A DNA stretch of 56,583 nucleotides. It comes from a virus. The stretch spans positions 1 through 56,583 of the IMG/VR virus record IMGVR_UViG_3300042387_001648, one strand, 5' to 3'. The position numbers and the translations under genes are program-made. This document shows positions 1-30,080 of this stretch, one piece after another. Position 1 is the stretch's first letter. Every line of letters begins with the position of its first letter. The notes under the pieces are model-generated. The model saw only the letters and a list, made by a program, of their open reading frames with translations. It was not told where the DNA came from and ran no database searches.

Positions 1-3000
1 GTGGTTCTCAGGGATCTCAAGGAACTCAAGGTGTTATCGGTTCTCAGGGATTCCAAGGAACTCAAGGAACTGTTGGTTCTCAGGGATCTCAAGGTCTTCA
101 AGGGCAAATAGGTAATCAAGGTTCTCAAGGTCTACAGGGAACTATTGGTTCCCAAGGTTCTCAAGGTCTTCAGGGGCAAATTGGATCTCAAGGTTCTCAA
201 GGTTCGCAAGGAACTGTTGGTTCTCAGGGAATCCAAGGAACTCAGGGAACGATTGGATCGCAAGGTTTTCAAGGTTCTCAAGGTGCTCAGGGAACTCAAG
301 GAACTATTGGTTCTCAAGGTTCTCAAGGTCTTCAGGGAGTAATAGGATCTCAAGGTTTTCAGGGATTAGTTGGGCAACGTGGTAATGATGGAACTTCTGT
401 ATCTATTGTTGGATCGTTAGGATTAACTGTAGGAAATGAGCAAACTCAACTTAATGCTTCTGGAAATTCTTGGTATCCTCCTTCTCCTGGTGATGGTGTA
501 ATTGATAGCAATACTGGAAATCTTTGGGTTTATGATGGTGTAATATGGAACAATGTGGGAACTGTAAGAGGACCTCAAGGACTTCAGGGATCCAAAGGAG
601 ACCAAGGAACGCAAGGTACGATTGGATCTCAAGGATTCCAAGGTTCTCAAGGTGCTCAGGGAACTCAAGGAACTATTGGTTCTCAAGGTTCACAAGGAAC
701 TCAAGGAACTATTGGTTCTCAAGGTGTTCAGGGAACACAAGGCATAATTGGTTCTCAAGGTGTTCAGGGAACACAAGGCATAATTGGTTCTCAAGGTGTT
801 CAGGGAACACAAGGTATAATTGGTTCTCAAGGTTTGCAGGGAACTCAAGGAACTCAAGGAACAACAGGATCACAAGGTTCTCAAGGAACTCAGGGAGTTA
901 TTGGTTTACAAGGAATTCAAGGCATTCAAGGATCTGCTGCACCTTCTTTAACTGTAAGTACTAGATCTGGGTATTCTGGAATTAATAGTACTGATGCTGT
1001 AACAAATGTAAGTGCTATTAGATTTGATAGGAATACTGGATTTGCAGTTACCGATTTGGGTAGCGGTGAAGTTTTTGTCCAACTTGGAAGTAGTTTTAAA
1101 ACTTGGAATGTTGCTGGACAAGATTCTTTAGTTGCAGTTGCCGAAGATACTGTAGAGTTTATTGCTGGACCTGGAATTGCAATAACAACTAAAGCGACAG
1201 ATCCTAAAACAATAACATTTTCAACTATTGTAGGTGTAGGATCTACAGGTTCTCAAGGTGTTCAGGGATCGCAAGGAATTCAAGGTATTATTGGTTCCCA
1301 AGGTTTTCAAGGTCTTCAGGGAGTTATCGGTTCTCAAGGTTCGCAGGGATTACAAGGAATTAATGGATCTCAAGGTGCTCAGGGAACTCAAGGCACAACA
1401 GGAACAATAGGATCGCAAGGATCGCAAGGAACTCAAGGTCTTATCGGTTCGCAAGGTTCACAAGGAACTCAAGGCACAATAGGAACAATAGGATCGCAAG
1501 GATCGCAAGGAACTCAAGGCACAATAGGAACAATAGGATCGCAAGGTTCGCAAGGAACTCAAGGTCTTATCGGTTCTCAAGGTGCTCAGGGAACCCAAGG
1601 AGTAATTGGATCGCAAGGTTCGCAAGGAACTCAAGGTCTTATCGGTTCTCAAGGTGCTCAGGGAACCCAAGGAGTAACTGGATCACAAGGTTCCCAAGGA
1701 ACTCAAGGACTAACTGGATCACAAGGTTCCCAAGGAACTCAAGGACTAACTGGATCACAAGGTGCTCAGGGAACTCAAGGCACAATAGGAACGCAAGGTT
1801 TACAGGGAACTCAAGGCACAATAGGAACGCAAGGTTTACAGGGAACTCAAGGTCTTGTCGGTTCCCAAGGTTCACAGGGAACTCAAGGTCTTATCGGTTC
1901 CCAAGGTTCACAGGGAACTCAAGGTGTTATTGGTTCTCAAGGAACTCAAGGTATTATTGGTCCAATAGCAGGATCAAATACTGAAATTATATTTAATGAT
2001 AATAATACTGCTGGAGCATCTTCTAACTTTACCTTTGATAAGGCAACGTCAACAGTTCAGATTGGTGGTGCTTCCGGAATTGGTATTAATACAAATACTA
2101 TTATCGGTCCTTCAGAAATTACAATTGATCCATCAGCAGTTGGTGATAATACTGGATCTGTAAGAATTAAGGGTGATTTATATGTTGATGGAACTCAGAC
2201 TTACATTAATTCAACTATAATTGAACTTGCAGATTTTAATGTTGGTATAGCAACAACAATAGGAACCAATGCACTTCTTGATGGTGCTGGTATTGGTATT
2301 GGATCTACTAATATAAGAAAAACTTTAACTTGGGATAATGTTAATAGTTCATTAAAATCAAGTGAAAACTTTAATCTTGATAATACAAAAACTTACAAAA
2401 TTAACGGATCTAATGTTTTTGAAGATAAAAATACTCTTGGTACTGGAGTCGTTAATTCATCATTGACTTCTGTTGGAACATTGGGACAATTAAATGTTTC
2501 TGGTGTTTCTACTTTTAGTGGTACAATAGAATTAGATGGTGGTCTTAAAGATAGATCTAATAGTGTTGGTGCTGCTGGATCTATTTTAACTTCTACTGGC
2601 GGAGGAGTTTCTTGGACAACCCCTTATGCTGCTGGTTTGCAGGGACTTCAAGGAACTCAGGGAACTCAAGGTTTTATCGGTTCTCAAGGTGCTCAGGGAA
2701 CTCAAGGAACAATAGGAACGCAAGGTTCTCAAGGTGCTCAGGGAACACAAGGTGTTATCGGTTCGCAAGGTTCACAAGGAACTCAAGGTCTTATCGGTTC
2801 TCAAGGTGCTCAGGGAACTCAAGGAACAATAGGAACGCAAGGTTTACAGGGAACTCAAGGTCTTATCGGTTCCCAAGGTTCCCAAGGAACTCAAGGACTA
2901 ACTGGATCACAAGGTTCGCAGGGAACTCAAGGTGTTATTGGTTCTCAAGGTGCTCAGGGAACTCAAGGTCTTATCGGTTCCCAAGGTTCTCAAGGAACTC

Positions 3001-5273
3001 AAGGACTAACTGGATCACAAGGTTCGCAGGGAACTCAAGGATCCTCTGCAGCAACTGCAATTACAAATAATACAAATAATTACGTAGTTACTGCTACTGG
3101 AGATTCTAATACACCATTTAATGGCGAATCAAATCTTACTTTTGATGGTACAACATTAAAATCTCCAATTCTAGAATCAACACAATCTTCTGGTAGTGAA
3201 GGTGGTGAAATAAAACTCAATAAACCAGCATCAAGTACATCAATTGATACTGGCATTACAATTGATATTTACGAAAATAAAGTTAGAATTTTTGAAACTG
3301 GTGGAACTAATAGAGGTGGATATTGGGACGTAACTGCATTAGGTATCGGTGTAACAACTAATCTTCTATCTGGTGGAGCTGGGGGAGCAACTGGACCAAC
3401 TGGTGCTCAGGGAACTCAAGGAACTCAAGGTATTATTGGATCACAAGGTTCACAGGGAATTCAGGGAATCATTGGTTCTCAAGGATCTCAAGGTCTTCAA
3501 GGTGAACTTGGATCTCAAGGAACTCAAGGAACTCAAGGAACTATTGGATCTCAAGGTTCGCAAGGAACTCAGGGAATCATTGGTTCTCAAGGATCTCAAG
3601 GTCTTCAAGGTGAACTTGGATCTCAAGGAACTCAAGGAACACAAGGTATAATTGGATCTCAAGGTTCTCAAGGTCTTCAAGGTGAACTTGGATCTCAAGG
3701 AACTCAAGGAACTCAAGGAACTATTGGATCTCAAGGTTCGCAAGGAACTCAGGGAATCATTGGTTCTCAAGGATCTCAAGGAACACAAGGTATAATTGGA
3801 TCTCAAGGTTCTCAAGGTCTTCAAGGTGAACTTGGATCTCAAGGTTTGCAAGGAACACAGGGTATAATTGGTTCACAAGGTTCTCAAGGTTTGCAAGGAA
3901 CTATCGGTTCTCAAGGATCTCAAGGAACTCAAGGAACTCAAGGAACTATTGGTGCTCAAGGAACTCAAGGAACTATTGGTGCTCAAGGATCTCAAGGAAC
4001 ACAAGGTATAATTGGATCTCAAGGTTCTCAAGGTCTTCAAGGTGAACTTGGATCACAGGGAGTAGTTGGTAATATTTCTTATAATGTTTATAATTCTGGA
4101 GCATCTTCTTACACTATAAATTCTCAAAATAATCCAACTTTGATTTTAGCAAGAGGATTTACTTATCAATTTGTTGTCAGTGCGTCTGGGCATCCTTTCT
4201 GGATTAAAACTTCACAAACCACTGGAACTGGAGATGCTTATAATACTGGAGTTACGAATAATGGAATTGATAATGGGACAATAACATTTGTAGTTCCTTT
4301 TGATGCTCCAAACACTTTATATTATAATTGCCAATATCATTCTTCTATGGCTGGAACTATTTCAGTTAATGATTTGGGGCAACAAGGAATTCAAGGACTT
4401 CAAGGATTTAGTGGGGGAACTGGAACACAAGGTGCTCAAGGTCTTCAAGGTGATAAAGGTATTGGTTCTCAAGGTTCTCAGGGTTTATCTGTTCAAGGTT
4501 TACAAGGTTTATCCGTTCAAGGATCTCAAGGTATTCAAGGTGTTCAGGGATCTTTAGGTAATCAAGGGATTCAAGGTAATCAGGGAATTATAGGACCAAT
4601 AGGTATTCAAGGTTCTCAGGGAACGCAAGGTATTGATGGTCTTTATGCTGGACAAGGAACTCAAGGTCTTCAAGGTGTTGGATTGGATGGATCTCAAGGT
4701 TCTCAAGGACTTAGAGGTGCATTTGATGCACAAGGACTTCAAGGAACTCAGGGATTAGGAATTCCAGGATCTCAAGGTTCTCAAGGAACGCAAGGTATTG
4801 ATGGTCTTTATGCTGGACAAGGAACACAAGGATTGCAAGGACTTGCAGGTTCTATTGGTATAAATGGAACTCAAGGAACGCAAGGTATTGATGGTCTTTA
4901 TGCTGGACAAGGAACTCAGGGACTTGGTGGAGGATTTAGAGTTTTCCGATCATCATCTCCACCTAATATTTCTACAGTTTCTGGTGATTATTGGATTGAT
5001 GAAGATGATGGAATTACATATACTTGGTTTGATGATGGTGATTCGCAGCAGTGGGTTGAGTTTGGTCCAACACCACAACAAGTTAATATTGGAGTAAGTG
5101 GTTTTGGAATTTCAACAAGTGGTGGATTTGTTGGATTTACTACTTATTTGAGTTTTGAAGGTCCTGGTGTTTCTACAGTAACAGTTTCTTCAGGAATTGC
5201 AACAATAAATATAACAGGCGGAGGAGCGGGAACTCCCGATATAAGTCCAGTAATGATGGGGATGATTTTCTAA
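1..5273 (+). CDS. Collagen-like tail fibre, 5' end outside the window
   Basis: The reading frame (codons beginning at base 3) is open from the left edge to TAA at 5271-5273, so the first ATG inside the window (555) is not the true start. It encodes at least 1757 residues. Six collagen-like Gly-X-Gln tracts (about 3-371, 567-936, 1230-1965, 2628-3042, 3375-4060, 4377-4929) are separated by beta-rich domains of the type seen in marine phage fibres, including one near 2160-2630. The domain at 4062-4376 carries a His (codon 4191) and a Cys-x2-His-x2-Met motif (codons 4329, 4338, 4347) like a type 1 copper site. The C-terminus ends in a small non-collagen domain. The collagen assignment rests on the repeats; a trimeric tail-fibre role is inferred from these repeats and the adjoining fibre genes. 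Confidence 0.85.
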   Translation, partial: GSQGSQGTQGVIGSQGFQGTQGTVGSQGSQGLQGQIGNQGSQGLQGTIGSQGSQGLQGQIGSQGSQGSQGTVGSQGIQGTQGTIGSQGFQGSQGAQGTQGTIGSQGSQGLQGVIGSQGFQGLVGQRGNDGTSVSIVGSLGLTVGNEQTQLNASGNSWYPPSPGDGVIDSNTGNLWVYDGVIWNNVGTVRGPQGLQGSKGDQGTQGTIGSQGFQGSQGAQGTQGTIGSQGSQGTQGTIGSQGVQGTQGIIGSQGVQGTQGIIGSQGVQGTQGIIGSQGLQGTQGTQGTTGSQGSQGTQGVIGLQGIQGIQGSAAPSLTVSTRSGYSGINSTDAVTNVSAIRFDRNTGFAVTDLGSGEVFVQLGSSFKTWNVAGQDSLVAVAEDTVEFIAGPGIAITTKATDPKTITFSTIVGVGSTGSQGVQGSQGIQGIIGSQGFQGLQGVIGSQGSQGLQGINGSQGAQGTQGTTGTIGSQGSQGTQGLIGSQGSQGTQGTIGTIGSQGSQGTQGTIGTIGSQGSQGTQGLIGSQGAQGTQGVIGSQGSQGTQGLIGSQGAQGTQGVTGSQGSQGTQGLTGSQGSQGTQGLTGSQGAQGTQGTIGTQGLQGTQGTIGTQGLQGTQGLVGSQGSQGTQGLIGSQGSQGTQGVIGSQGTQGIIGPIAGSNTEIIFNDNNTAGASSNFTFDKATSTVQIGGASGIGINTNTIIGPSEITIDPSAVGDNTGSVRIKGDLYVDGTQTYINSTIIELADFNVGIATTIGTNALLDGAGIGIGSTNIRKTLTWDNVNSSLKSSENFNLDNTKTYKINGSNVFEDKNTLGTGVVNSSLTSVGTLGQLNVSGVSTFSGTIELDGGLKDRSNSVGAAGSILTSTGGGVSWTTPYAAGLQGLQGTQGTQGFIGSQGAQGTQGTIGTQGSQGAQGTQGVIGSQGSQGTQGLIGSQGAQGTQGTIGTQGLQGTQGLIGSQGSQGTQGLTGSQGSQGTQGVIGSQGAQGTQGLIGSQGSQGTQGLTGSQGSQGTQGSSAATAITNNTNNYVVTATGDSNTPFNGESNLTFDGTTLKSPILESTQSSGSEGGEIKLNKPASSTSIDTGITIDIYENKVRIFETGGTNRGGYWDVTALGIGVTTNLLSGGAGGATGPTGAQGTQGTQGIIGSQGSQGIQGIIGSQGSQGLQGELGSQGTQGTQGTIGSQGSQGTQGIIGSQGSQGLQGELGSQGTQGTQGIIGSQGSQGLQGELGSQGTQGTQGTIGSQGSQGTQGIIGSQGSQGTQGIIGSQGSQGLQGELGSQGLQGTQGIIGSQGSQGLQGTIGSQGSQGTQGTQGTIGAQGTQGTIGAQGSQGTQGIIGSQGSQGLQGELGSQGVVGNISYNVYNSGASSYTINSQNNPTLILARGFTYQFVVSASGHPFWIKTSQTTGTGDAYNTGVTNNGIDNGTITFVVPFDAPNTLYYNCQYHSSMAGTISVNDLGQQGIQGLQGFSGGTGTQGAQGLQGDKGIGSQGSQGLSVQGLQGLSVQGSQGIQGVQGSLGNQGIQGNQGIIGPIGIQGSQGTQGIDGLYAGQGTQGLQGVGLDGSQGSQGLRGAFDAQGLQGTQGLGIPGSQGSQGTQGIDGLYAGQGTQGLQGLAGSIGINGTQGTQGIDGLYAGQGTQGLGGGFRVFRSSSPPNISTVSGDYWIDEDDGITYTWFDDGDSQQWVEFGPTPQQVNIGVSGFGISTSGGFVGFTTYLSFEGPGVSTVTVSSGIATINITGGGAGTPDISPVMMGMIF
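3..4930 (+). repeat. Interrupted collagen-like GxQ coding repeats
   Basis: Short units encoding GSQGSQGTQG, GTIGSQG, GLIGSQG and GELGSQG recur in six blocks within the fibre gene. Many adjacent units are identical at the DNA level, for example copies around 721-840 and 1560-1760, which points to expansion by slippage or recombination. The module [13 protein letters not shown] occurs three times (near 4629, 4794 and 4884). Confidence 0.9.
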
Positions 5274-5274
5274 A

Positions 5275-5637
5275 ATGGCAGCACCAAATCTAAAAAATCC
5301 TACTACTATTGTTGGAGTTACAACATCGGTAAAACTTACAACCAATAACAATACTGGTATTTTAACAAACTTATCTGGAAGTAATAAAGTTTTAAAGATT
5401 AATAGTATTTTTGCAGCAAATGTTGATGGTGCAAATAATGCTGATATAAGCGTTTCTATATTAAGGGATGCGGTAGATTTTTTTATTGCAAGAACAATAA
5501 CTGTACCAGCAGATTCTACACAGATAATTTCAACTAAAGAAAGTTATTTTTATGTGGAAGAAAATGTAGGAATTCGTGCTCAGGCAAGTGTGGCAAATGA
5601 TATTGATATTGTAATATCATATGAGGAGATTTCATAA
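5275..5637 (+). CDS. Small conserved virion protein (tail-associated)
   Basis: This 120-residue protein starts one base after the fibre stop, and its TAA overlaps the next ATG by one base. It begins MAAPN and ends in YEEIS. Its pattern of short beta strands (KVLKINSIFAANVDG, then ISVSIL, then TITVPADST) matches a small protein that I know to be very common next to fibre genes in cyanophages and related marine myoviruses. It is predicted to be an all-beta structural protein. No enzymatic motif is visible. The exact position in the virion is unknown; the call rests on remembered family resemblance and on location. Confidence 0.7.
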   Translation: MAAPNLKNPTTIVGVTTSVKLTTNNNTGILTNLSGSNKVLKINSIFAANVDGANNADISVSILRDAVDFFIARTITVPADSTQIISTKESYFYVEENVGIRAQASVANDIDIVISYEEIS

Positions 5638-8600
5638 TGAAAGTAATCAGTGGAAGTTTACCAACTACACCCCAAGGATTATTAAAAGGTATTTTCTTTC
5701 CAGATGATAATGTTCGTAATGAAGTAATACTTGGTGATATTGTTCGTTATGGTTATACTAATAAATCTTATTCTGTCAGCACTCAAAATAGTGTTCCATA
5801 TTCAGTTGCTATAAGTACTGATGGAACTAAAATGTATGTTATTTCAAATCAACAAGTTTTTCAATATACATTAACAACACCATTTGAAGTTAATACTGCT
5901 TCTTATGCATCCAAATCAATTAGCTTTAGTTCACTAGAGGGAAATGGGCAAGGTTTATCAATCAGTAATGATGGTGTAAATCTTTATATTACTGGAAATA
6001 CAAATGATAGGATCCTTCAATATGTTATGACTACGCCTTGGGATCTTGCAACTGCTAAAATTCCTCCTTTGGTAAAAACTTTTTTAGTTGCTACTCAAGA
6101 AAATGATCCTAACGGAATGTGCTTTGGGGATTCGGGGACGAAACTTTATGTAATTGGAAATACTAATGATACGATATATCAATATACTTTAACTACAGCA
6201 TATGATATTTCTACTGCATCTTATGCTAGTAAATCTTATTATGTTGGTTCAATAGACTCTTTTCCCCTGGGAATGGAGTTTAAACCAGATGGAACTAGAT
6301 TTTATCTGTGTGGTGGAATTAATAATAGAATGTATCAGTTTACTTGCACTACGCCTTGGGATATTAGCACTGCTAGATACTTATTAACTCCATCTCCTGT
6401 TTTCTCTGGTGCTGGAGCAGTTGGAGAACAGCAACCGACTGGAATGTACATAGGAGATTCCGGAACCAAGTTGTATATTGTAGGGAACTGGAACGATACA
6501 ATATATCAATATACCTTGTCTACTCCATATGATGTTTCTACTGCAACTTATGCTAGTAAATCTTTTTTACTTACTAGTCAAACTTCATATCCTACAGGAA
6601 TTACTTTTAAACCTGATGGAACTGAAGTGTATATATGTGATGGATTAAGCGATAGAGTCTTTGAATATGAATTAACAACTGCTTGGGATATTAGCACTGC
6701 TAGAAATATACTTCCCACATCTATATCTTTATCGTCACAAGAATCAATTCCAACTGGAATGGCGTTTAAATCTGATGGGACAGCAGTTTATATCATTGGT
6801 GTAAACAATGATACAATTTATCAATATACTTTAAGTACTGCTTGGGATGTATCTACAGCATCTTATGCATCTAAGAGTTTTTCTGTCACCACACAAGATA
6901 CTAATCCTAGAGGTATTGCATTTAAGGATGACGGAACAAAAGTTTACATGATAGGTGATACGAATGATAGAGTATATCAATACAGTTTAAGTACCGCATG
7001 GGATATTAGCACTGCATCTTACGAAAATAAAAGTTTTCTTGTAAGTGGTCAAGATACTGCACCTAATGATTTATATTTTAGAACTAATGGAACTAAAATG
7101 TACATTCTTGGTGATACGAACAATAGAGTGTACGAATATACTTTGAGTACTGCATGGGATGTAAGCACTGCAACTAGTTCAACCAATATATCAGTGCAAA
7201 CGGAAACTTTAACAGGATTAACATTTAATGCTGATGGAACATCTTTTTATATAATCGGAACAACAAATGATGTTGTTTATCAATATAGTATGTCTACTGC
7301 TTGGTTAGTTAGTAGTGCAACACTAGTGGCTCAAACTGTTAGACCAACTATTTTGCAGGATGGAAATTTTGTAGCAATAAGTTTTAATTCTGATGGGACT
7401 AAAATTTTTCTTTTGGGGGATAGTACTGATAGAATATATCAATATACTGTAAGCACTGCATATACGACTAGTACAATGAACGTCGGTTATGTTCCTGTGA
7501 ATTTGGGACTTAGTTCTAGTTGGGAACCTAGAGATGTTGCTTTTAGTACTGATGGGACTAAAATGTATACTGTCCAATATAATTCAGGTTCAACAGATTA
7601 TATTGAGCAGTATAATTTAGGCGTTGCTTGGAATATTTCTACCGCAGTTTATCAAACTGTGCTTACTTCTCCTGATACTGAGCCTCATTCAATATCATTT
7701 AAACCTGATGGAACTAAATTATATGTTTTGGGATCTACGAATGATAAAATTTATCAATATACATTAAGTACTCCATGGAGTCTTTCAACTGCTACTCAAG
7801 ATACATTGCAAAATGCCACTTATATTGGAATACAGGAGGTATCTCCAACTGGGATGCATTTTAATGATAACGGTACTCGTGTGTATGTTATTGGTGATGG
7901 TAATGACAGAATATATCAATATGAAATTGAAGATGCTTGGAATATGAACAGTATGAACATGGGATATTTTCAAATATCAAATATTTGGGGTACTTCTTGG
8001 ACTTTTCGTGATATTACATTTAAAACTGATGGGACTCGATTCTTTTGCCCTCTTTATGCCATTTCTCTTACCGATTACATAGCACAGTTTACTTTGACTG
8101 CAAATGCTTGGAATATATGTGCTTTATCCTCAACATCCGCAAGTATTACCTCTCCTGATGCTATACCGGAAGGAATTGCATTTAAACCTGATGGAACCAG
8201 GATGTATATAATTGGAGATAGTGGCGATAGAATTTATGAATATACTTTATCTGTTCCTTGGGATTTAGGAAGTGGAACTCTAACCCAACAATCTCATAAT
8301 CATAATGGTAGTATTACACATATCGAAACAAGTCCTAGATCTTTGTTAATTAGTGCAGATGGAACTAAAATATATGTTATCGGGGCTGGAAATGATACAA
8401 TTTATCAAATGGATATGACAACACCATGGATTCTTGATACGATGAATGTTGGTTATAGATCTATAAGTCAAGAAGCAACTTCATATGGTCATACTATGTC
8501 ATATGATGGATCTAAGGTTTATATTATTGGTGCTAATGATACGATATATCAATATAGTTTATCAACTCCATTTAATTTAGGGTCTTTTTCTTATGAATCT

Positions 8601-8882
8601 AAATCTTTAAATATTAATGCAACTTCTCCAGACGCTAGAGATTTATTCATTAATAAAACCGGAACAAAAATGTATACTATAGATCAAACAAATGATAGAG
8701 TATATCAATTTAATTTATCAACACCATTTGACATATCAACAGGAACATCTGCAAATAAAAATATATCAATCGTTTCTAATGAAATAACAGGAGAAGGATT
8801 AACTTTCTCTCAAAATCTTGATAGGTTGTATGTCGTTGGTACTAATAACGATATAGTTTATCAGTATGATTTTAATTTCTAA
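5637..8882 (+). CDS. Beta-propeller receptor-binding-type fibre protein
   Basis: The 1081-residue product contains about 20 imperfect repeats of roughly 52 residues. Each has a core of the form DGTK-hydrophobic-Y-hydrophobic-IG-xx-ND-x-hydrophobic-YQY-x-L-ST-x-WD followed by STASYxSKS. Such repeats fold as propeller blades; 20 units would make about three propellers or a long solenoid. The N-terminus (about residues 1-40) has a different sequence and probably anchors the protein. The start overlaps the previous stop (TAATG). It lies in a run of fibre genes, so recognition of a host surface molecule is a reasonable inference. No lactonase or hydrolase catalytic set was identified. Confidence 0.7.
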   Translation: MKVISGSLPTTPQGLLKGIFFPDDNVRNEVILGDIVRYGYTNKSYSVSTQNSVPYSVAISTDGTKMYVISNQQVFQYTLTTPFEVNTASYASKSISFSSLEGNGQGLSISNDGVNLYITGNTNDRILQYVMTTPWDLATAKIPPLVKTFLVATQENDPNGMCFGDSGTKLYVIGNTNDTIYQYTLTTAYDISTASYASKSYYVGSIDSFPLGMEFKPDGTRFYLCGGINNRMYQFTCTTPWDISTARYLLTPSPVFSGAGAVGEQQPTGMYIGDSGTKLYIVGNWNDTIYQYTLSTPYDVSTATYASKSFLLTSQTSYPTGITFKPDGTEVYICDGLSDRVFEYELTTAWDISTARNILPTSISLSSQESIPTGMAFKSDGTAVYIIGVNNDTIYQYTLSTAWDVSTASYASKSFSVTTQDTNPRGIAFKDDGTKVYMIGDTNDRVYQYSLSTAWDISTASYENKSFLVSGQDTAPNDLYFRTNGTKMYILGDTNNRVYEYTLSTAWDVSTATSSTNISVQTETLTGLTFNADGTSFYIIGTTNDVVYQYSMSTAWLVSSATLVAQTVRPTILQDGNFVAISFNSDGTKIFLLGDSTDRIYQYTVSTAYTTSTMNVGYVPVNLGLSSSWEPRDVAFSTDGTKMYTVQYNSGSTDYIEQYNLGVAWNISTAVYQTVLTSPDTEPHSISFKPDGTKLYVLGSTNDKIYQYTLSTPWSLSTATQDTLQNATYIGIQEVSPTGMHFNDNGTRVYVIGDGNDRIYQYEIEDAWNMNSMNMGYFQISNIWGTSWTFRDITFKTDGTRFFCPLYAISLTDYIAQFTLTANAWNICALSSTSASITSPDAIPEGIAFKPDGTRMYIIGDSGDRIYEYTLSVPWDLGSGTLTQQSHNHNGSITHIETSPRSLLISADGTKIYVIGAGNDTIYQMDMTTPWILDTMNVGYRSISQEATSYGHTMSYDGSKVYIIGANDTIYQYSLSTPFNLGSFSYESKSLNINATSPDARDLFINKTGTKMYTIDQTNDRVYQFNLSTPFDISTGTSANKNISIVSNEITGEGLTFSQNLDRLYVVGTNNDIVYQYDFNF

Positions 8883-12291: not shown

Positions 12292-15200
12292 ATGGCGAGA
12301 AAGGTTATATTAGAAACCGCTTATACTTTTACTCCAGGAGCACCTGGAGCTGGTTATCTTGTCATACCAAAGGCAATTAAAAGAGAAAATTTAATTTTAA
12401 TTACAAACGTAACTAGAAATACTGTAATTTATAATTTTTCAGATCCAAATTTAAAAGCAGCTTCTTACAGTATTACAACATCTGGAACAAACACAACAAC
12501 TACAATTTATTTTGAGTATAATACTGCTGGAATGGGCAGTTCTGACAAAATACAAATTGTAATTGATGAGTATGATGAAAAGTTTACACCAGCAGAAACA
12601 TATACCGATCCAGTTAATAAATTAAGAGTTTCTCAACCACAGGCTCTTATTGATACTGACTTTGAATATGGAACTCAAACTACAAAATGGGAAAATCTTG
12701 GATTGATTAATAATCGTCCTTTTGCATATCAAAGACCAAATCCACTTGTCGTAAGTTCTATTACTTTAAACACTTCTTCCAGAACTGTTACTGTAGTATT
12801 ATCTAGTGGAACTGCACCAGCAAATGGAACTCCAATTAATGTATTAGATACTTTTCTTACAATTGCAAACGGAAACTTTTTAATTGAAGGTGGTGGCGGA
12901 ACTAACACATTTACTTATAGTGCAAGTGCAGTTAATACCACAGCAATTACGAGTATTTTTGATACAAATAAAACTTTAATTTATGCTGGAGATTTATATA
13001 CATCTGCATCAATAGGAACCGCACCAACTTCAATTACAACAAGTGGAAATGCTGTAACTGTTACGACAAGTGTTCCTCATGGATTAGCAATTGGTAATGA
13101 AATTGCTGTTACTGGAATCACAGGAACAAATCCTCCTAATGGATCTTTTGTTGTTGTTACGATATTAAGCGCAACTCAATTTGTTTATTATGCTAATGCA
13201 ACTCCCTCTGGTCTATCATTTGGTTCCGCAAGAATTTATGTAAGACCCCAAGCACAATTTTTACATCGTCCTTTTGATGGTGGAGTTATTTTTACAAGTA
13301 ATGGTAATGCTAATTATGAATCGGCATTAAGACAAACTAGAAGATATTTTAGATATCAATCTGGTAAGGGTATTATGGTTAGTTCTGGAACCATAATCAA
13401 ACCAAACTTACAAGTTGATAATATGACTGCCAGTGGAAGTACAGTTACGGTTCAAACAAAAGAAAAGCATAATATTCTTCCAGGAACTACAATTGTTGTA
13501 AGTGGAGCAACACCAGATGCATATAATGGAACTTTTGTAGTTACTAGCATTACTGGAAACAATACATTTGAATATACCGCACTTTCATCTCCAACTTCTT
13601 CCCCGGCAGGTGGATTATATTATGTAAGTGTTACTGGATGGTATGGTGCTTCAAATCGCCTTGGATTATTTGATTCTCAAAATGGTGTTTACTTTGAATA
13701 TGATGGGCAGCAATTATATGCTTGTAGACGTAAATCAACTTTCCAACTATCTGGTAAAGTAACTGTTACGAATGGATCAAATACAATTACTCAAACAAAC
13801 AGTTCTTTTCCAACATTTTTTACAAAACAATTAAGACCCGGAGATTTTATTGTTATAAGAGGACAATCATATAGAGTTTATGATATAGCAAGCGACACTT
13901 CTTTAACAATATCTCCATCATATCGTGGAGCAACTGCTAGTTATGCCATTGTTTCTTTAACTGAAGATTTAAAAATTCCACAATCAGAATGGAATATTGA
14001 TAAATGTGATGGAACTGGACCTTCTGGATTTACTATTGATCTTGCAAGGATGCAGATGTTTTATATTGATTATTCTTGGTATGGTGCTGGTTTTGTTAGA
14101 TGGGGATTTCGTGGTGCTGACGGAAACGTATTCTATTGCCACAAACTAGCAAACAACAATGTTAATACTGAAGCTTATATGAGATCTGGTAATTTACCTG
14201 CCAGATATGAAAGTATTATAGAACCACCAAAAAGTATTCTTACTCAAACTCTTGCTTCTGGTGGATCTACATTATTTGTTCAAAGCACATCTGGATTTCC
14301 AAGCACTGGAACTTTATGTATACGGAATGCTAATGTTTATGAATATGTTAATTATAGTGGAATTGGTACAACTAGTTTTACTGGGTTGACAAGAGCACAA
14401 GCTGGATCATCAATCAATGTTACTGTTAATCAAGGATCAAATGTTGCTACGGCAGTAACAACTGCTATTCAAGTCGGGCAAAGGGTTGTTTCAACTGCTA
14501 TTCCGGATGGATCTTTTGTGACAAGTATTGGATCTGGTAATGTCAGATTAAGTCAAGCGGCATCGTCCAGTGGATCGGTTTCTGCTGTTTTTGCCCCCAT
14601 GGGTGCTTCATCTGGACAAACTTTTACATATTCTGATACTGATCCAGTTGCTGTTGAACTTGCTTATCCATCATTTGCTCCAACAATATCACACTGGGGA
14701 ACAAGTGTGATTATGGATGGTAGATTTGATGATGATAAATCTTTAGTCTTTACTTATGGTCAAGTCGCTGGTGTTACAATTCCTTCTAACGGAACTAGGG
14801 CACTATTTTCAATTAGAGTTGCTCCATCCGTTGATAATAGTATTGGAGGTAATTTTGGTGCTAGAGAACTTATCAACCGAATGCAGTTGGTTCTTCGACA
14901 ACTTGATATTTCTTCTCAGGCATTTGGAAATTCGTCACTTTTGGTGAGAGTATATTTGAATGCTTTACCTTCAACGTCAACTCCTTGGACTAATGCTGTT
15001 GGAAATGTAACATCAATTTCTAATTCAAGTTTAGCACAAATTGCCGACTATAGTACTGGCGGTGGAACTACAGTTTCTGGTGGTGAAGTTGTAGGTGGAT
15101 TCTTCGTAGGTGCTGGCGCTCAAAGTGTTGATTTTTCACAACTTCGTGATTTGGGAAATAGTATTCTTGGTGGTGGCGGTACAAACTCTAATACTGAAAT

Positions 15201-15303
15201 TTATCCAGATGGACCAGACACTGTTACGATTGTTGTTACAAACTTGACTGGAACACAGGTTGCTGTGTTTGGAAGACTTTCTTGGACGGAGGCTCAAGCA
15301 TAA
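12292..15303 (+). CDS. Large virion structural protein (tail/fibre type)
   Basis: The 1003-residue protein begins MARKVILETAYTFTPGAPG, a start I associate with a roughly 1000-residue structural protein conserved in cyanomyoviruses. It contains several repeated beta modules with the theme SGNAVTVTTSVPHGLAIGN or STVTVQTKEKHNILPGTT (near residues 245 and 380). A long aromatic-rich core follows (about residues 430-640, RYFRYQSGKG and WYGAGFVRWGFRGADGN). No catalytic motif is evident. It is preceded by a perfect late promoter and overlaps the next gene by one base. Virion location is supported by context; the exact structural role is not known. Confidence 0.65.
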   Translation: MARKVILETAYTFTPGAPGAGYLVIPKAIKRENLILITNVTRNTVIYNFSDPNLKAASYSITTSGTNTTTTIYFEYNTAGMGSSDKIQIVIDEYDEKFTPAETYTDPVNKLRVSQPQALIDTDFEYGTQTTKWENLGLINNRPFAYQRPNPLVVSSITLNTSSRTVTVVLSSGTAPANGTPINVLDTFLTIANGNFLIEGGGGTNTFTYSASAVNTTAITSIFDTNKTLIYAGDLYTSASIGTAPTSITTSGNAVTVTTSVPHGLAIGNEIAVTGITGTNPPNGSFVVVTILSATQFVYYANATPSGLSFGSARIYVRPQAQFLHRPFDGGVIFTSNGNANYESALRQTRRYFRYQSGKGIMVSSGTIIKPNLQVDNMTASGSTVTVQTKEKHNILPGTTIVVSGATPDAYNGTFVVTSITGNNTFEYTALSSPTSSPAGGLYYVSVTGWYGASNRLGLFDSQNGVYFEYDGQQLYACRRKSTFQLSGKVTVTNGSNTITQTNSSFPTFFTKQLRPGDFIVIRGQSYRVYDIASDTSLTISPSYRGATASYAIVSLTEDLKIPQSEWNIDKCDGTGPSGFTIDLARMQMFYIDYSWYGAGFVRWGFRGADGNVFYCHKLANNNVNTEAYMRSGNLPARYESIIEPPKSILTQTLASGGSTLFVQSTSGFPSTGTLCIRNANVYEYVNYSGIGTTSFTGLTRAQAGSSINVTVNQGSNVATAVTTAIQVGQRVVSTAIPDGSFVTSIGSGNVRLSQAASSSGSVSAVFAPMGASSGQTFTYSDTDPVAVELAYPSFAPTISHWGTSVIMDGRFDDDKSLVFTYGQVAGVTIPSNGTRALFSIRVAPSVDNSIGGNFGARELINRMQLVLRQLDISSQAFGNSSLLVRVYLNALPSTSTPWTNAVGNVTSISNSSLAQIADYSTGGGTTVSGGEVVGGFFVGAGAQSVDFSQLRDLGNSILGGGGTNSNTEIYPDGPDTVTIVVTNLTGTQVAVFGRLSWTEAQA

Positions 15304-20263: not shown

Positions 20264-20580
20264 ATTTAAGTAATTTAAAGGACTATCATAGAGGGTGGAT
20301 TATTGGTGATTTTGATCCATCTATCTTAAGAACGAAAGATTTTGAAGTTGGTGTTTTGTTTCATCCTAAGGGTGAAGTGTGGGCAGCACATTATCATAAA
20401 GATAGTGTAGAATATAATGTTCTTCTTTCTGGAAAAATGATGATTCAAGAAAAGGAGTTAAATAGTGGAGATGTATTTGTATTTGATAAGGGAGAAGTTG
20501 CAGATCCTATCTTTCTTGAAGACTGTACAGTAGTATGTGTAAAAGTTCCCTCCATTCCATCAGATAAATTTGAGGTTTAA
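20260..20580 (+). CDS. Small single-domain cupin
   Basis: The 106-residue protein has cupin motif 1 as H44-x-H46-x4-E51-x6-G58, preceded by a typical strand. The second motif (GDVFVFDKGE, residues 70-79) lacks the usual final metal-binding His, so metal binding may rest on three ligands. Small cupins often isomerise or epimerise sugars or bind small acids. It sits between the nucleotidyltransferase (4-base overlap) and the RuBisCO-like gene (one base away). A joint role in making an unusual sugar is an inference from this arrangement. Confidence 0.75.
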   Translation: MNLSNLKDYHRGWIIGDFDPSILRTKDFEVGVLFHPKGEVWAAHYHKDSVEYNVLLSGKMMIQEKELNSGDVFVFDKGEVADPIFLEDCTVVCVKVPSIPSDKFEV

Positions 20581-20581
20581 A

Positions 20582-21820
20582 ATGAAGTTTTTTAGAGAAT
20601 TAACCGAACAAGAAAAAAATCGTTGTGTGATTGCAACGTATTATATTGAAGCACATCAACAAGTTGGAGATTTGAGAGATGCTGCCTGGAACCTTGCGAT
20701 TGGGCAGAGTGTAGGCAATCCAAAGGTTCGTAATCGTTGGGAAAGCGATGAACTTTTTGAGCTTTCTTCATGTGTAATTTACGATACCGAAGAAAATCTT
20801 ACGGGTGTCTATTCTGGGAAAGTTAAAATTGGTTTTCCGAAAGTAAACACTGATTGGGAAGGTGATGGAATTTCACATCTTCTTTGTCAACTTATGGGAG
20901 GACAATTGGATATTGATGTTTTTAAAGCATGTAGACTTCAGAAGTTAGAGTTTCCTGCAGATGTTGAAGCATCTTTTCTTGGACCAAAGAATGGTATTGA
21001 CGGTATTCGTAAGTTTGTCAATCGTTATGATAAACCACTTTCTGGTGCGATTGTAAAACCGAAGACTGGAATTTCTCCACAAACTCTTTCCGAAATGGTG
21101 AAAGAACTTCTTGATGGTGGTGTAGACTTTATCAAAGAAGATGAGATTCTTTCTAACCCTTCATTCTGCCGTCTTGAAGATCGTGTAGAACTGATTTCTA
21201 ATATTGTTAATAATTGTGGAAGGAATGTGATTTATGCCTTCTGCATTAATGGTGATCACCATACTATTCTTGATCGTGCTAAATTTGTTGCAGACAATGG
21301 GGGCAATGGGATTCATATTAACTTCTGGTCTGGTCTTGGAGTTTATAACTCTGTTAGAAAAATGGATTTACCTTTGTTTATTCACTATCAAAAGAGTGGT
21401 GATAAGATTCTGACTGATAAGAGACATGCATTTGGTATTGATTGGGATGTTCTCTGCGATCTTGCAGGTCTTTGTGGTGTGGATACAATTCATGCTGGAA
21501 TGTGGGGTGGATACTTGAGTGATGATGAGAATGAACTTCGCCAAACTATGGAAACTCTTCACAGGCGTAATGTTCTTCCTGCATTGAGCTGTGGTATGCA
21601 TCCTGGCATCGTAAACACTACGGCAGAGAAGTTTGGTACGGACTTCCTTGCTAACTGCGGAGGTGCCGTACACGGGCATCCAGGCGGCACTCTGGCGGGT
21701 GCTTTGGCAATGCGCCAAGCAATTGATAAGAATCCTGGACCAGAGTTTCGTGTTGCTATTGATAAGTGGGGTTATGAAACTGGTGGAGGTTCTTTACCCG
21801 AGTGGGTTTTAGATTTTTGA
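20582..21820 (+). CDS. RuBisCO-like protein (Form IV type)
   Basis: The 412-residue product aligns by motif with the RuBisCO large subunit. GAIVKPKTGIS places Lys159 at spinach Lys175. DFIKEDE gives Lys185, Asp187 and Glu188 at the carbamylated Lys201 and the metal ligands Asp203 and Glu204. His268 matches His294, His304 matches His327, Ser336 matches Ser379, and Gly360-Gly361 match the phosphate-binding glycines. The loop-6 Lys334 is Tyr311, Arg295 is Tyr269, and the N-terminal Glu60 is also lost. Carboxylation is therefore unlikely; a related enolisation or isomerisation of a sugar phosphate is more plausible, as in Form IV proteins. I start at ATG 20582 with GAGG six bases upstream, rather than the TTG at 20570. 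The 3' third is far richer in G+C than its neighbours, suggesting transfer. Confidence 0.88.
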   Translation: MKFFRELTEQEKNRCVIATYYIEAHQQVGDLRDAAWNLAIGQSVGNPKVRNRWESDELFELSSCVIYDTEENLTGVYSGKVKIGFPKVNTDWEGDGISHLLCQLMGGQLDIDVFKACRLQKLEFPADVEASFLGPKNGIDGIRKFVNRYDKPLSGAIVKPKTGISPQTLSEMVKELLDGGVDFIKEDEILSNPSFCRLEDRVELISNIVNNCGRNVIYAFCINGDHHTILDRAKFVADNGGNGIHINFWSGLGVYNSVRKMDLPLFIHYQKSGDKILTDKRHAFGIDWDVLCDLAGLCGVDTIHAGMWGGYLSDDENELRQTMETLHRRNVLPALSCGMHPGIVNTTAEKFGTDFLANCGGAVHGHPGGTLAGALAMRQAIDKNPGPEFRVAIDKWGYETGGGSLPEWVLDF

Positions 21821-28601: not shown

Positions 28602-28608
28602 GACCTTA

Positions 28609-28701
28609 CGTTCATCTGGGAAACCAGACGCAAGTAGGACGGCGGAACGGGACGTTCATTCGCTATTCGCAAATAGCGAACGCAAACCGCCCGAAGGAAC
28701 G
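28609..28701 (+). ncRNA. Glutamine riboswitch (glnA / Downstream-peptide type)
   Basis: The sequence shows the conserved parts of the glutamine aptamer. P1 is CGTTC (28609-28613) with GAACG (28697-28701). P2 is TCTGG (28615-28619) with CCAGA (28624-28628) around a GAAA tetraloop. The hallmark GACGCAAGTAGG follows at 28627-28638, and CGAAGGAACG closes the fold. P3 is GGCGG (28641-28645) with CCGCC (28687-28691) and carries an unusually long insert: a 9-base-pair hairpin (28659-28667 with 28672-28680) and a possible GAACG/CGTTC hairpin. The related Downstream-peptide RNAs are known upstream of short peptide genes in cyanobacteria and their phages, as seen here. The aptamer lies 33 bases before the peptide's ATG. 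Confidence 0.85.
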
Positions 28702-28734
28702 GGGCCTAAAAATCTCATTCTGGAGGAAATCCTA

Positions 28735-29284: not shown

Positions 29285-29448
29285 GTAGTAGAGCAAGAGA
29301 ATTAGTAAAGTTGTTGGAAAGGTTGGTCAAACAAGATCATCTCTATTCCGATGAGCAACTAAAAGAAATGAAATCACAATTGCGAGTAATAAAACAAGAA
29401 CTTGCAGATATTGAAGCACAAACATCAAAAGGATTTGGAAAAAAATGA
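29281..29448 (+). CDS. Small coiled-coil-like phage protein
   Basis: The ORF starts at ATG 29281, inside the previous stop, and ends at TGA 29446-29448, overlapping the thyX ATG. The 55-residue product (MSSRARELVKLLERLVKQ at its start) is almost entirely helical with heptad-like leucines, consistent with a short coiled coil. Its coupling to thyX suggests shared expression. No catalytic residues are apparent. Confidence 0.6.
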   Translation: MSSRARELVKLLERLVKQDHLYSDEQLKEMKSQLRVIKQELADIEAQTSKGFGKK

Positions 29449-30080
29449 CGGTAAAACTTATTTCAGTAACGCCCGATGCAGAAAAAACAATGGCGTATGT
29501 TGCACGAGTTAGCAATCCTGCGAATCAAGACAACGAAAACTATGCCAAGTTGCTTGCTTATTGCATTAAGCATAATCATTGGTCTGTTTTTGAACAGTCT
29601 TTTATGACTCTTGAGATTGAAACGAATCGTGGTATCGCAGCTCAGATTTTGCGTCACCGTTCGTTTACATATCAAGAATTTTCACAACGTTATGCAGATT
29701 CTTCTCTGCTAGGCGAAACAATTCCTGTTCCAGAACTTCGCCGCCAAGACACAAAGAATCGCCAAAACTCTATTGATGATGTTGATCCTTCTGTAGTTGA
29801 AAAATATGAATATTTGATTCGTGAGCATTTTAGAGATGCTATGGCACTGTATCAAACAATGCTGGATGAGGGAATTGCAAAGGAATGTGCAAGGTTCGTG
29901 CTTCCTTTGGCAACACCGACAAAAATTTATATGTCTGGCTCATGCAGGTCGTGGATTCATTATATCAATCTTCGCTCTGCAAATGGCACTCAAAAAGAGC
30001 ATATGGATATTGCACTTGCATGTAAGGAAATTTTCAAAGAGCAGTTCCCATCAGTATCAGAAGCACTTGAATGGGTCTAA
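29445..30080 (+). CDS. thyX: Flavin-dependent thymidylate synthase ThyX
   Basis: The 211-residue protein has the ThyX signature at residues 70-82: R-H-R followed by the S-x-R end (RHRSFTYQEFSQR), with Thr in place of the first usual Ser. The enzyme methylates dUMP to dTMP using methylenetetrahydrofolate, FAD and NADPH, which supplies thymine for phage DNA. Length and overall motif order match the family. T4-like cyanophages commonly carry thyX beside phoH, as here. The start overlaps the previous stop by 4 bases. Confidence 0.95.
   Translation: MTVKLISVTPDAEKTMAYVARVSNPANQDNENYAKLLAYCIKHNHWSVFEQSFMTLEIETNRGIAAQILRHRSFTYQEFSQRYADSSLLGETIPVPELRRQDTKNRQNSIDDVDPSVVEKYEYLIREHFRDAMALYQTMLDEGIAKECARFVLPLATPTKIYMSGSCRSWIHYINLRSANGTQKEHMDIALACKEIFKEQFPSVSEALEWV

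Follow-up and report, generated by a model that had tools for sequence, protein, structure and literature searches.

The window analyzed here is the linear IMG/VR virus record IMGVR_UViG_3300042387_001648 at its full length of 56,583 bases. Its leftmost gene encodes a collagen-like tail fiber, within which we identified a predicted cupredoxin domain that carries the four residues of a type 1 copper site (His44, Cys90, His93, and Met96). We put the probability that these residues form a metal site at about 0.8; to the extent that sequence and a predicted fold can decide the matter, they support its assignment to the type 1 copper kind. A preceding sequence-only reading had given the four codons exactly and had placed the domain between two collagen tracts, where delimiting the G-X-Y repeats also puts it. 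The bounds proposed in that reading (4062–4376) were right in location but wider than the extent defined by a hidden Markov model (HMM; Table 1).

The reading frame of the fiber is open from base 3 and has no start codon in the window, position 555 being merely the first GTG. From 555 onward, the product is made of G-X-Y collagen-like tracts (mostly GSQ and GTQ), which match Pfam family PF01391 (Collagen) in thirteen stretches (E-value of 6e-119 for the scan from 555). Four long stretches that are not collagen-like part these tracts, and a further such stretch forms the C-terminus. The fourth long stretch (4077–4376) carries the cupredoxin-like domain, and the plus-strand translation of 4062–4376 reads VVGNISYN...SASGHPFWIKTS...LYYNCQYHSSMAGTISVNDL. 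Throughout the visible frame of 1756 amino acids (bases 3–5273) there are one Cys, two His, and four Met residues: the motif accounts for the single Cys, the two His, and one of the Met, and the remaining three Met are C-terminal. HMM scans of all frames of the window returned no further copy of the domain, the next best match having an E-value of 0.25.

Structure prediction, one of the checks that the sequence-only reading had proposed, returned a predicted cupredoxin fold with the ligand residues in the expected elements. The AlphaFold2 model of the domain, built with an 86-sequence alignment, has a mean predicted local distance difference test (pLDDT) score of 95.7 and a predicted template modeling score of 0.88. 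It contains eight strands (residues 5–12, 16–19, 27–30, 34–40, 46–49, 71–77, 85–90, and 97–103); His44 lies between strands four and five, Cys90 ends strand seven, and His93 and Met96 are in the next loop, a placement that we take to be the cupredoxin layout. A Foldseek search against the PDB gave 1337 matches at E ≤ 10 and 109 at E ≤ 0.001. Among the best 50 of the 1337, every title that names a protein names a cupredoxin-fold copper protein (the title of 3cvd names none). AcoP (E-value of 1.2e-5) and rusticyanin (2.1e-5) come first, and the leading matches also include multicopper oxidases, NirK, amicyanin, plastocyanin, and an engineered CuA domain. With VIA-align, the model superimposes on residues 24–133 of nitrite reductase 2dv6_A (Z = 11.4; 1.8 Å over 89 residues) and on the rusticyanin variant 2cal (Z = 11.1; 2.2 Å over 95 residues). 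On the predicted structure, the domain has the cupredoxin (Greek-key beta-barrel) fold.

One Cys, two His, and a Met constitute the type 1 copper set, and the alignments place the four residues in the corresponding register. When the domain was compared by hhalign with three Pfam PF00127 proteins from other genomes, H44, C90, H93, and M96 fell on their H, C, H, and M (E-value of 2e-4 and probability of 46 per cent with one alignment of the domain; 4e-5 and 69 per cent with the other). The C-x2-H-x2-M spacing of the domain is also found in these three PF00127 proteins (L170, L173, and L174), and that of nitrite reductase 9cck aligns to C90, H93, and M96. The original description of the motif as plastocyanin-like applies to the order of the residues but not to their spacing: C-x2-H-x2-M is the short spacing that we associate with amicyanin, whereas that of plastocyanin is presumably C-x2-H-x4-M.

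Curated families approach the domain without reaching it. Pfam PF00127 (Copper-bind) scores 15.1 bits (E-value of 0.033; gathering cut-off of 21.2) and matches 4 of 86 relatives at E ≤ 0.01; PF25489 (At5g54830-like) scores 20.4 bits (E-value of 5.4e-4; cut-off of 27) and matches 32 of the 86 at the same threshold, with a best E-value of 5.7e-6; and the NCBIfam rusticyanin model TIGR03095 gives 16.9 bits (E-value of 0.0056), its cut-off being 146.7. DUF4352 is weak in the window (E-value of 0.035, under its cut-off) and matches 13 of 86 relatives at E ≤ 0.01 (best 9.8e-6), and Head_fiber_dimeric matches three. We describe the domain as a cupredoxin by fold and ligands that lies above the cut-off of no curated Pfam or NCBIfam family.

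Similar segments had been said to occur in other marine phages, and they prove to be numerous. A tblastn search of 50,697 phage records (E ≤ 1e-5) located the domain 348 times, in 338 of the records, and in IMG/VR it is on at least 589 stretches. By the first word of their names, 264 of the 338 records are Synechococcus, 48 cyanophage, and 19 Prochlorococcus (331 cyanophage-type names in total), and the rest are ‘Marine’ (five), Actinomycetia (one), and Pelagibacter (one). Domains were fetched from 19 of these records. In six phages (S-SSM5, P-SSM7, S-RIM14, S-RIM12, ACG-2014d, and syn9) the domain is the C-terminus of a protein of 400–417 amino acids, annotated as gp9 connector in five of them and as gp10-like tail pin in syn9. 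In phage ME01 a connector-named protein extends beyond the domain, and the other carriers, two Autographiviridae among them, are tail fiber, minor tail, or hypothetical proteins. A PHROGs scan of the domain (the rest of the visible frame being mostly collagen) likewise matched the gp9 connector family phrog_677 (E-value of 8.4e-28) at profile positions 306–410 of 412, its C-terminal domain. A sister contig, IMGVR_UViG_3300051212_001061 (55,403 bases), carries a domain 91 per cent identical to that of the window, and the frame that encodes it contains a second copy.

Among the predicted viral protein structures of BFVD, the same domain is present in more cyanophage fibers. The model also matches small ‘beta-sandwich’ proteins there (A0A481Z6J5, A0A481Z7Q7, and A0A481YVH3; E-values of 4.7e-9 to 7.9e-8); their records bear the names Pithovirus LCPAC and Marseillevirus LCMAC, which places a fold like that of cupredoxins in giant-virus records. 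Separately, in cyanomyoviruses, a gene of about 830 amino acids that follows the gp9-type gene (L113, L115, L120, L121, L126, and L128) contains 11 weak cupredoxin-like stretches (7.3–24.4 bits), with ligand residues present in some and absent from others.

The domain is not confined to phages, a correction to the earlier view. In bacterial and archaeal genomes (one for each of 84,980 species, in a scan that reaches close relatives only) we found 28 loci; on plasmids the domain was not found. Judged by eye, at least six of the bacterial relatives look exported, with a signal peptide or lipobox (L082, L083, L091, L097, L100, and L104), and four loci from bacterial bins (L103, L106, L108, and L109) look like phage fiber genes. 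Among 26 bacterial domains, L097 has Gln in place of Met96 and L107 ends before the Cys. In marine-type Alphaproteobacteria (OCS116, PS1 clade, and kin; L084–L089, L093–L096, L098, L101, L102, and L105), a frame of about 420–450 amino acids has one clear domain and a diverged second stretch upstream, which reads YYYCLxHxGM where its end was matched.

Conservation of the ligands is a further line of evidence. In the window and the 19 named-phage domains, which are 32–64 per cent identical to that of the window, nine columns are invariant and include all four ligand columns; the chance that four given columns of 99 all fall among the invariant nine is 3e-5, a figure that ignores relatedness. The first IMG/VR sets were recruited partly or wholly with ligand-containing words, so that the 60 full sites of 60 found there prove little. 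Relatives were therefore also recruited blind to the ligands, with residues 47–86 alone or with the part preceding His44 alone, and all four ligands were present in 51 of 59 and in 48 of 48 distinct domains, respectively (86 of 94 when pooled; hereafter the fair set). A third scan was deliberately tilted by seeding it with ligand-poor segments; it is credited with 43 new loci of 80, and the site is full in 27 of 31 among these. Each recruiting scan consists of the best 80 loci, more distant relatives lying outside the sample. The three scans together comprise 203 loci and, with identical domains merged, 114 distinct domains, 104 of which have the full site. The earlier counts (the 60 of 60, the 19 named-phage domains, and the 26 bacterial ones) leave out repeated sequences, rows containing X, and stretches that score less than 60 bits in the viral and bacterial sets or less than 50 bits in the named phages; the weak stretches that follow gp9-type genes and the diverged upstream copies of the OCS116/PS1 proteins lie below this line. 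Reading the ligands by a fixed offset gives 48 full sites of 55; one lineage then has F at the first position, where MAFFT gives D, and neither is His.

A collagen tract immediately precedes the domain in 58 of the 114 distinct domains. The site is full in 51 of 52 domains with a tract on both sides and in 45 of 54 with none on either side, a comparison that includes tilted third-scan rows and flanks cut by contig ends.

The domains without a full site are informative in the way they lack it. At positions 44, 90, 93, and 96, the ten read D C Q M (five domains of one lineage), H S N M, Q S G M, S S Y M, Q S Q M, and Q S S M. Every exception, whether among the eight in the fair set or the ten of all 114, is without at least two of H44, C90, and H93, and never without just one, and Met96 is kept in all 114 distinct viral domains. 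Among the 561 pairs formed by the 34 columns that are at least 85 per cent conserved but not invariant, the pair 44–93 is the most strongly coupled in the fair set (phi = 0.93), with 90–93 sixth and 44–90 fourteenth; over all 114 domains the three pairs rank first (phi = 0.94), fifth, and ninth. As a pattern the joint loss is plain, but the events behind it are few, and we read it as the loss of a type 1 copper site as a unit in some lineages. The predicted fold, the alignment to PF00127, and the tendency of H44, C90, and H93 to be retained or lost together agree with the original proposal that these are the four residues of a type 1 copper site.

Several observations count against a metal site, or against its importance. 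The domain scores under every curated cut-off that was tried in Pfam and NCBIfam, and the model of its fold leaned on the alignment of 86 sequences. The non-ligand column 41 couples with column 93 nearly as strongly as the ligands do (phi = 0.78), so that part of the coupling is due to shared descent. The tree needs at least four changes to account for the ligand-poor rows, and an independent-pairs test of joint loss has at most four pairs, which puts significance out of reach; long branches also meet in this tree (L181 with the D C Q M group), and the number of losses is uncertain. In the IMG/VR set, H44, C90, and H93 are equaled or exceeded in conservation by many columns that hold no ligand. 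Since Met96 is kept even in the ligand-poor relatives, its conservation may be structural. Free copper is scarce in the cytoplasm, where fibers assemble. Finally, a ligand-poor domain from a collagen fiber (L338; Q S S M) has the same predicted fold (pLDDT of 96.9; best VIA-align Z of 10.5, to a rusticyanin variant). Because the predicted fold survives there, the module perhaps lives without the site, which does not look indispensable to it, and may work without copper somewhere. The L338 model speaks for a scaffold role underneath, with the metal as an added property that most of the sampled lineages have retained.

The strongest alternative takes these observations further. It holds that the cupredoxin knob is structural or adhesive and metal-free in the virion, its four residues being retained for their packing or inherited from a secreted copper protein. 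The ligand-poor members, one of them predicted to fold alike, the retention of Met96 in them, and the many non-ligand columns that match the ligands in conservation would all fit a bare scaffold. It is harder to reconcile with the invariance of H44, C90, H93, and M96 in domains as divergent as the 19 from named phages, where only nine columns are invariant, and with the disappearance of H44, C90, and H93 jointly rather than singly, few as the events are. Neither pattern would be foreseen if the Cys and the two His were retained solely for packing. We regard a metal-free knob as unlikely.

On the reading that we favor, an intact cupredoxin of the type 1 copper kind forms a compact knob in the collagen-like, presumably trimeric fiber of a T4-like, cyanophage-related virus. 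Each chain would bind one copper ion through His44, Cys90, His93, and, weakly, Met96, and since collagen tracts form trimers, a fiber would bear three such knobs. Copper loading would be expected after lysis, because the cytoplasm of assembly is poor in free copper. The bound ion would tie the Cys90–His93–Met96 loop to the loop of His44 and so stiffen the knob. The likeliest use would be that of a virion-surface module, the stable knob serving as a spacer or as a point of contact with the host. We rank stability or adhesion first among the possible roles, copper-aided docking second, and redox switching third; that stability or adhesion is the role on its own is a tentative assignment, at somewhat less than even odds. 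The sequence-only reading had suggested that metal binding could stabilize the fiber or sense redox state, both of which are tentative readings.

Docking could depend on the copper itself, if host copper-uptake proteins or surface redox proteins recognized the copper-loaded knob. The domain is on virion proteins, namely collagen-like fibers and the gp9 connector, and an analogous idea for iron is in print (PMC11705849). Ligand-poor relatives would, however, need other means of binding, and gp9, by its record name, joins the baseplate to the fibers rather than forming a tip. Copper-mediated docking is, in our estimate, quite unlikely. A wider version would make many phages, and cyanophages above all, copper-bearing virions, in which intact blue-copper domains on the fibers and at the joint of baseplate and fiber would take up copper from the surrounding water and employ it when the host is met, either as a handle for docking or as a redox trigger, the ligand-poor lineages being escapes from copper dependence; taken as a whole, this version is rather unlikely. 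It is improbable that the site holds zinc, iron, or nickel instead of copper: sites of His and Cys can take other metals, but the leading fold matches are copper proteins. A redox switch, in which the Cu(I)/Cu(II) state would alter the conformation of the fiber or baseplate and let the phage sense oxygen or host electron flow, is very improbable, for although type 1 copper sites are redox-active by nature and the gp9-type copies are, by record name, at the joint of baseplate and fiber, we saw no partner protein or coupling element, and long collagen tracts flank the domain in the window. A chance motif is ruled out by the fold, the conservation, and the joint loss.

Table 1. Features of the tail-fiber gene and its cupredoxin-fold domain in the window.
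Feature	Position	Strand	Basis and remarks
Collagen-like tail-fiber open reading frame	3..5273	+	At least 1756 amino acids; runs off the left contig end; PF01391 Collagen
Collagen-like G-X-Y tract before the domain	3375..4076	+	Sequence
Cupredoxin-fold domain	4077..4373	+	HMM match 2e-49; AlphaFold2; Foldseek and VIA-align; the bounds 4062–4376 add a few flanking residues
His44, first ligand	4191..4193	+	Loop between strands 34–40 and 46–49
Cys90	4329..4331	+	Final residue of strand 85–90; sole Cys of the visible frame
His93	4338..4340	+	Loop following strand 85–90
Met96, expected axial ligand	4347..4349	+	Directly before strand 97–103; also present in ligand-poor relatives
Collagen-like G-X-Y tract after the domain	4377..4490	+	Sequence; more short tracts up to 4937
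Non-collagen C-terminal part of the fiber	4938..5273	+	Sequence

Elsewhere the window encodes T4-type parts: a tail tube cap (phrog_230), a wedge subunit (phrog_232), a head closure protein (phrog_218), a DNA end protector (phrog_429), and a single-strand binding protein (phrog_224). A structural protein encoded at 12292–15300 is most similar to proteins of Synechococcus phages and cyanophages, with which it shares about 47 per cent identity over its length. Judging by these genes, the virus appears to be a cyanophage-related T4-like one, and we would go no further in assigning it. Directly after the fiber region, positions 5637–8882 (plus strand) encode a protein of 1081 amino acids with matches of beta-propeller type (SGL, E-value of 1.4e-23; Lactonase, 9.3e-16), perhaps another adhesin.

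Three further features of the window are unconnected with the fiber. The first is a RuBisCO-superfamily protein of 416 amino acids (20570–21820, plus strand; PF00016, E-value of 2.7e-43), for which the NCBIfam type III model scores best, at 204 bits, under its cut-off of 497. In comparison with the archaeal-type chain 2cwx, it keeps the KPK and K..DE motifs, whereas the HAHR stretch and the loop 6 GK are not preserved, motifs to which we presume catalytic roles; since the latter two are not kept, the protein is probably RuBisCO-like rather than a sure carboxylase. It has no relative in the 50,697 phage records. In IMG/VR, relatives are encoded on 225 stretches, of which the best 80 were kept, and one of these is the sister contig. 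A search of open-licence PMC full text yielded no paper on a RuBisCO-like protein as a phage auxiliary metabolic gene. The second is a glutamine riboswitch (RF01739) at 28607–28705 (plus strand; 39.9 bits against a gathering score of 35), just upstream of, or overlapping, a short open reading frame with a YRGV...YRGVKF repeat. The third, an open reading frame of 211 amino acids at 29445–30080 (plus strand), is ThyX-like (thymidylate synthase) by the stretch RHRSFTYQEFSQRY, which we take to be a ThyX motif.

Cyanophages rank with the most abundant phages of sunlit waters. Should the site hold copper, their structural proteins include metalloproteins, and virus particles would be linked to copper chemistry, as HxH fibers are to iron. 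The domain would then also acquire a name and a role open to testing, where the records examined label it ‘hypothetical’ or after the protein that it ends. It lends itself to expression by itself, and its natural relatives, some with the ligands and some lacking them, are ready controls, L338 being a natural negative control for the copper site. Among the titles and opening lines of abstracts listed by searches of open-licence PMC full text (subscription journals, preprints, and database annotations being outside this scope), we found no description of a cupredoxin domain in a phage virion or tail fiber; the single paper that combined cupredoxin with cyanophage is about Borgs, and PMC8115048 treats nirK as a metabolic gene. 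We appear to be dealing with a known fold in a place for which no account was found, and the domain is likely undescribed.

Among known systems, the blue-copper proteins rusticyanin and AcoP of Acidithiobacillus resemble the domain in fold over its whole length. The His, Cys, His, and Met ligands are, we believe, the same in rusticyanin, from which the domain differs in being about 50 residues shorter, in its presumably shorter ligand loop, and in its seat in a virion fiber. Nitrite reductase 9cck shares both the C-x2-H-x2-M spacing and the GTISV ending, and its match in sequence is weak (E-values from 0.72 with one sequence to 0.0069 with a profile); unlike the fiber domain, nitrite reductases (2dv6 and 9cck) are enzymes with further copper domains. 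Amicyanin, plastocyanin, and the PF00127 family share the order of the ligands and their alignment with the domain, and amicyanin and plastocyanin are soluble carriers, whereas the domain is a module of a fiber. The cyanophage gp9 connector has the same domain with all four ligands, at the end of the protein rather than inside a collagen fiber. Cellular relatives from Acidobacteria (L082 and L097), Verrucomicrobia (L083), and Bdellovibrionales (L091) have domains 61–66 per cent identical in frames of 149–204 amino acids, and are apparently secreted or lipid-anchored. The nearest published idea concerns another metal and another motif: a metal site has been proposed in iron-binding HxH tail fibers (the T4 gp37 type and alterophage R22Y), in what is called the iron ‘Ferrojan/Trojan Horse’ idea (PMC11705849). 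An HxH iron site is not in the visible frame, the upstream part of the fiber lying beyond the contig. Where HxH fibers pair HxH motifs with iron, the fiber of the window has its two His 49 residues apart and joined by a Cys and a Met in a single domain.

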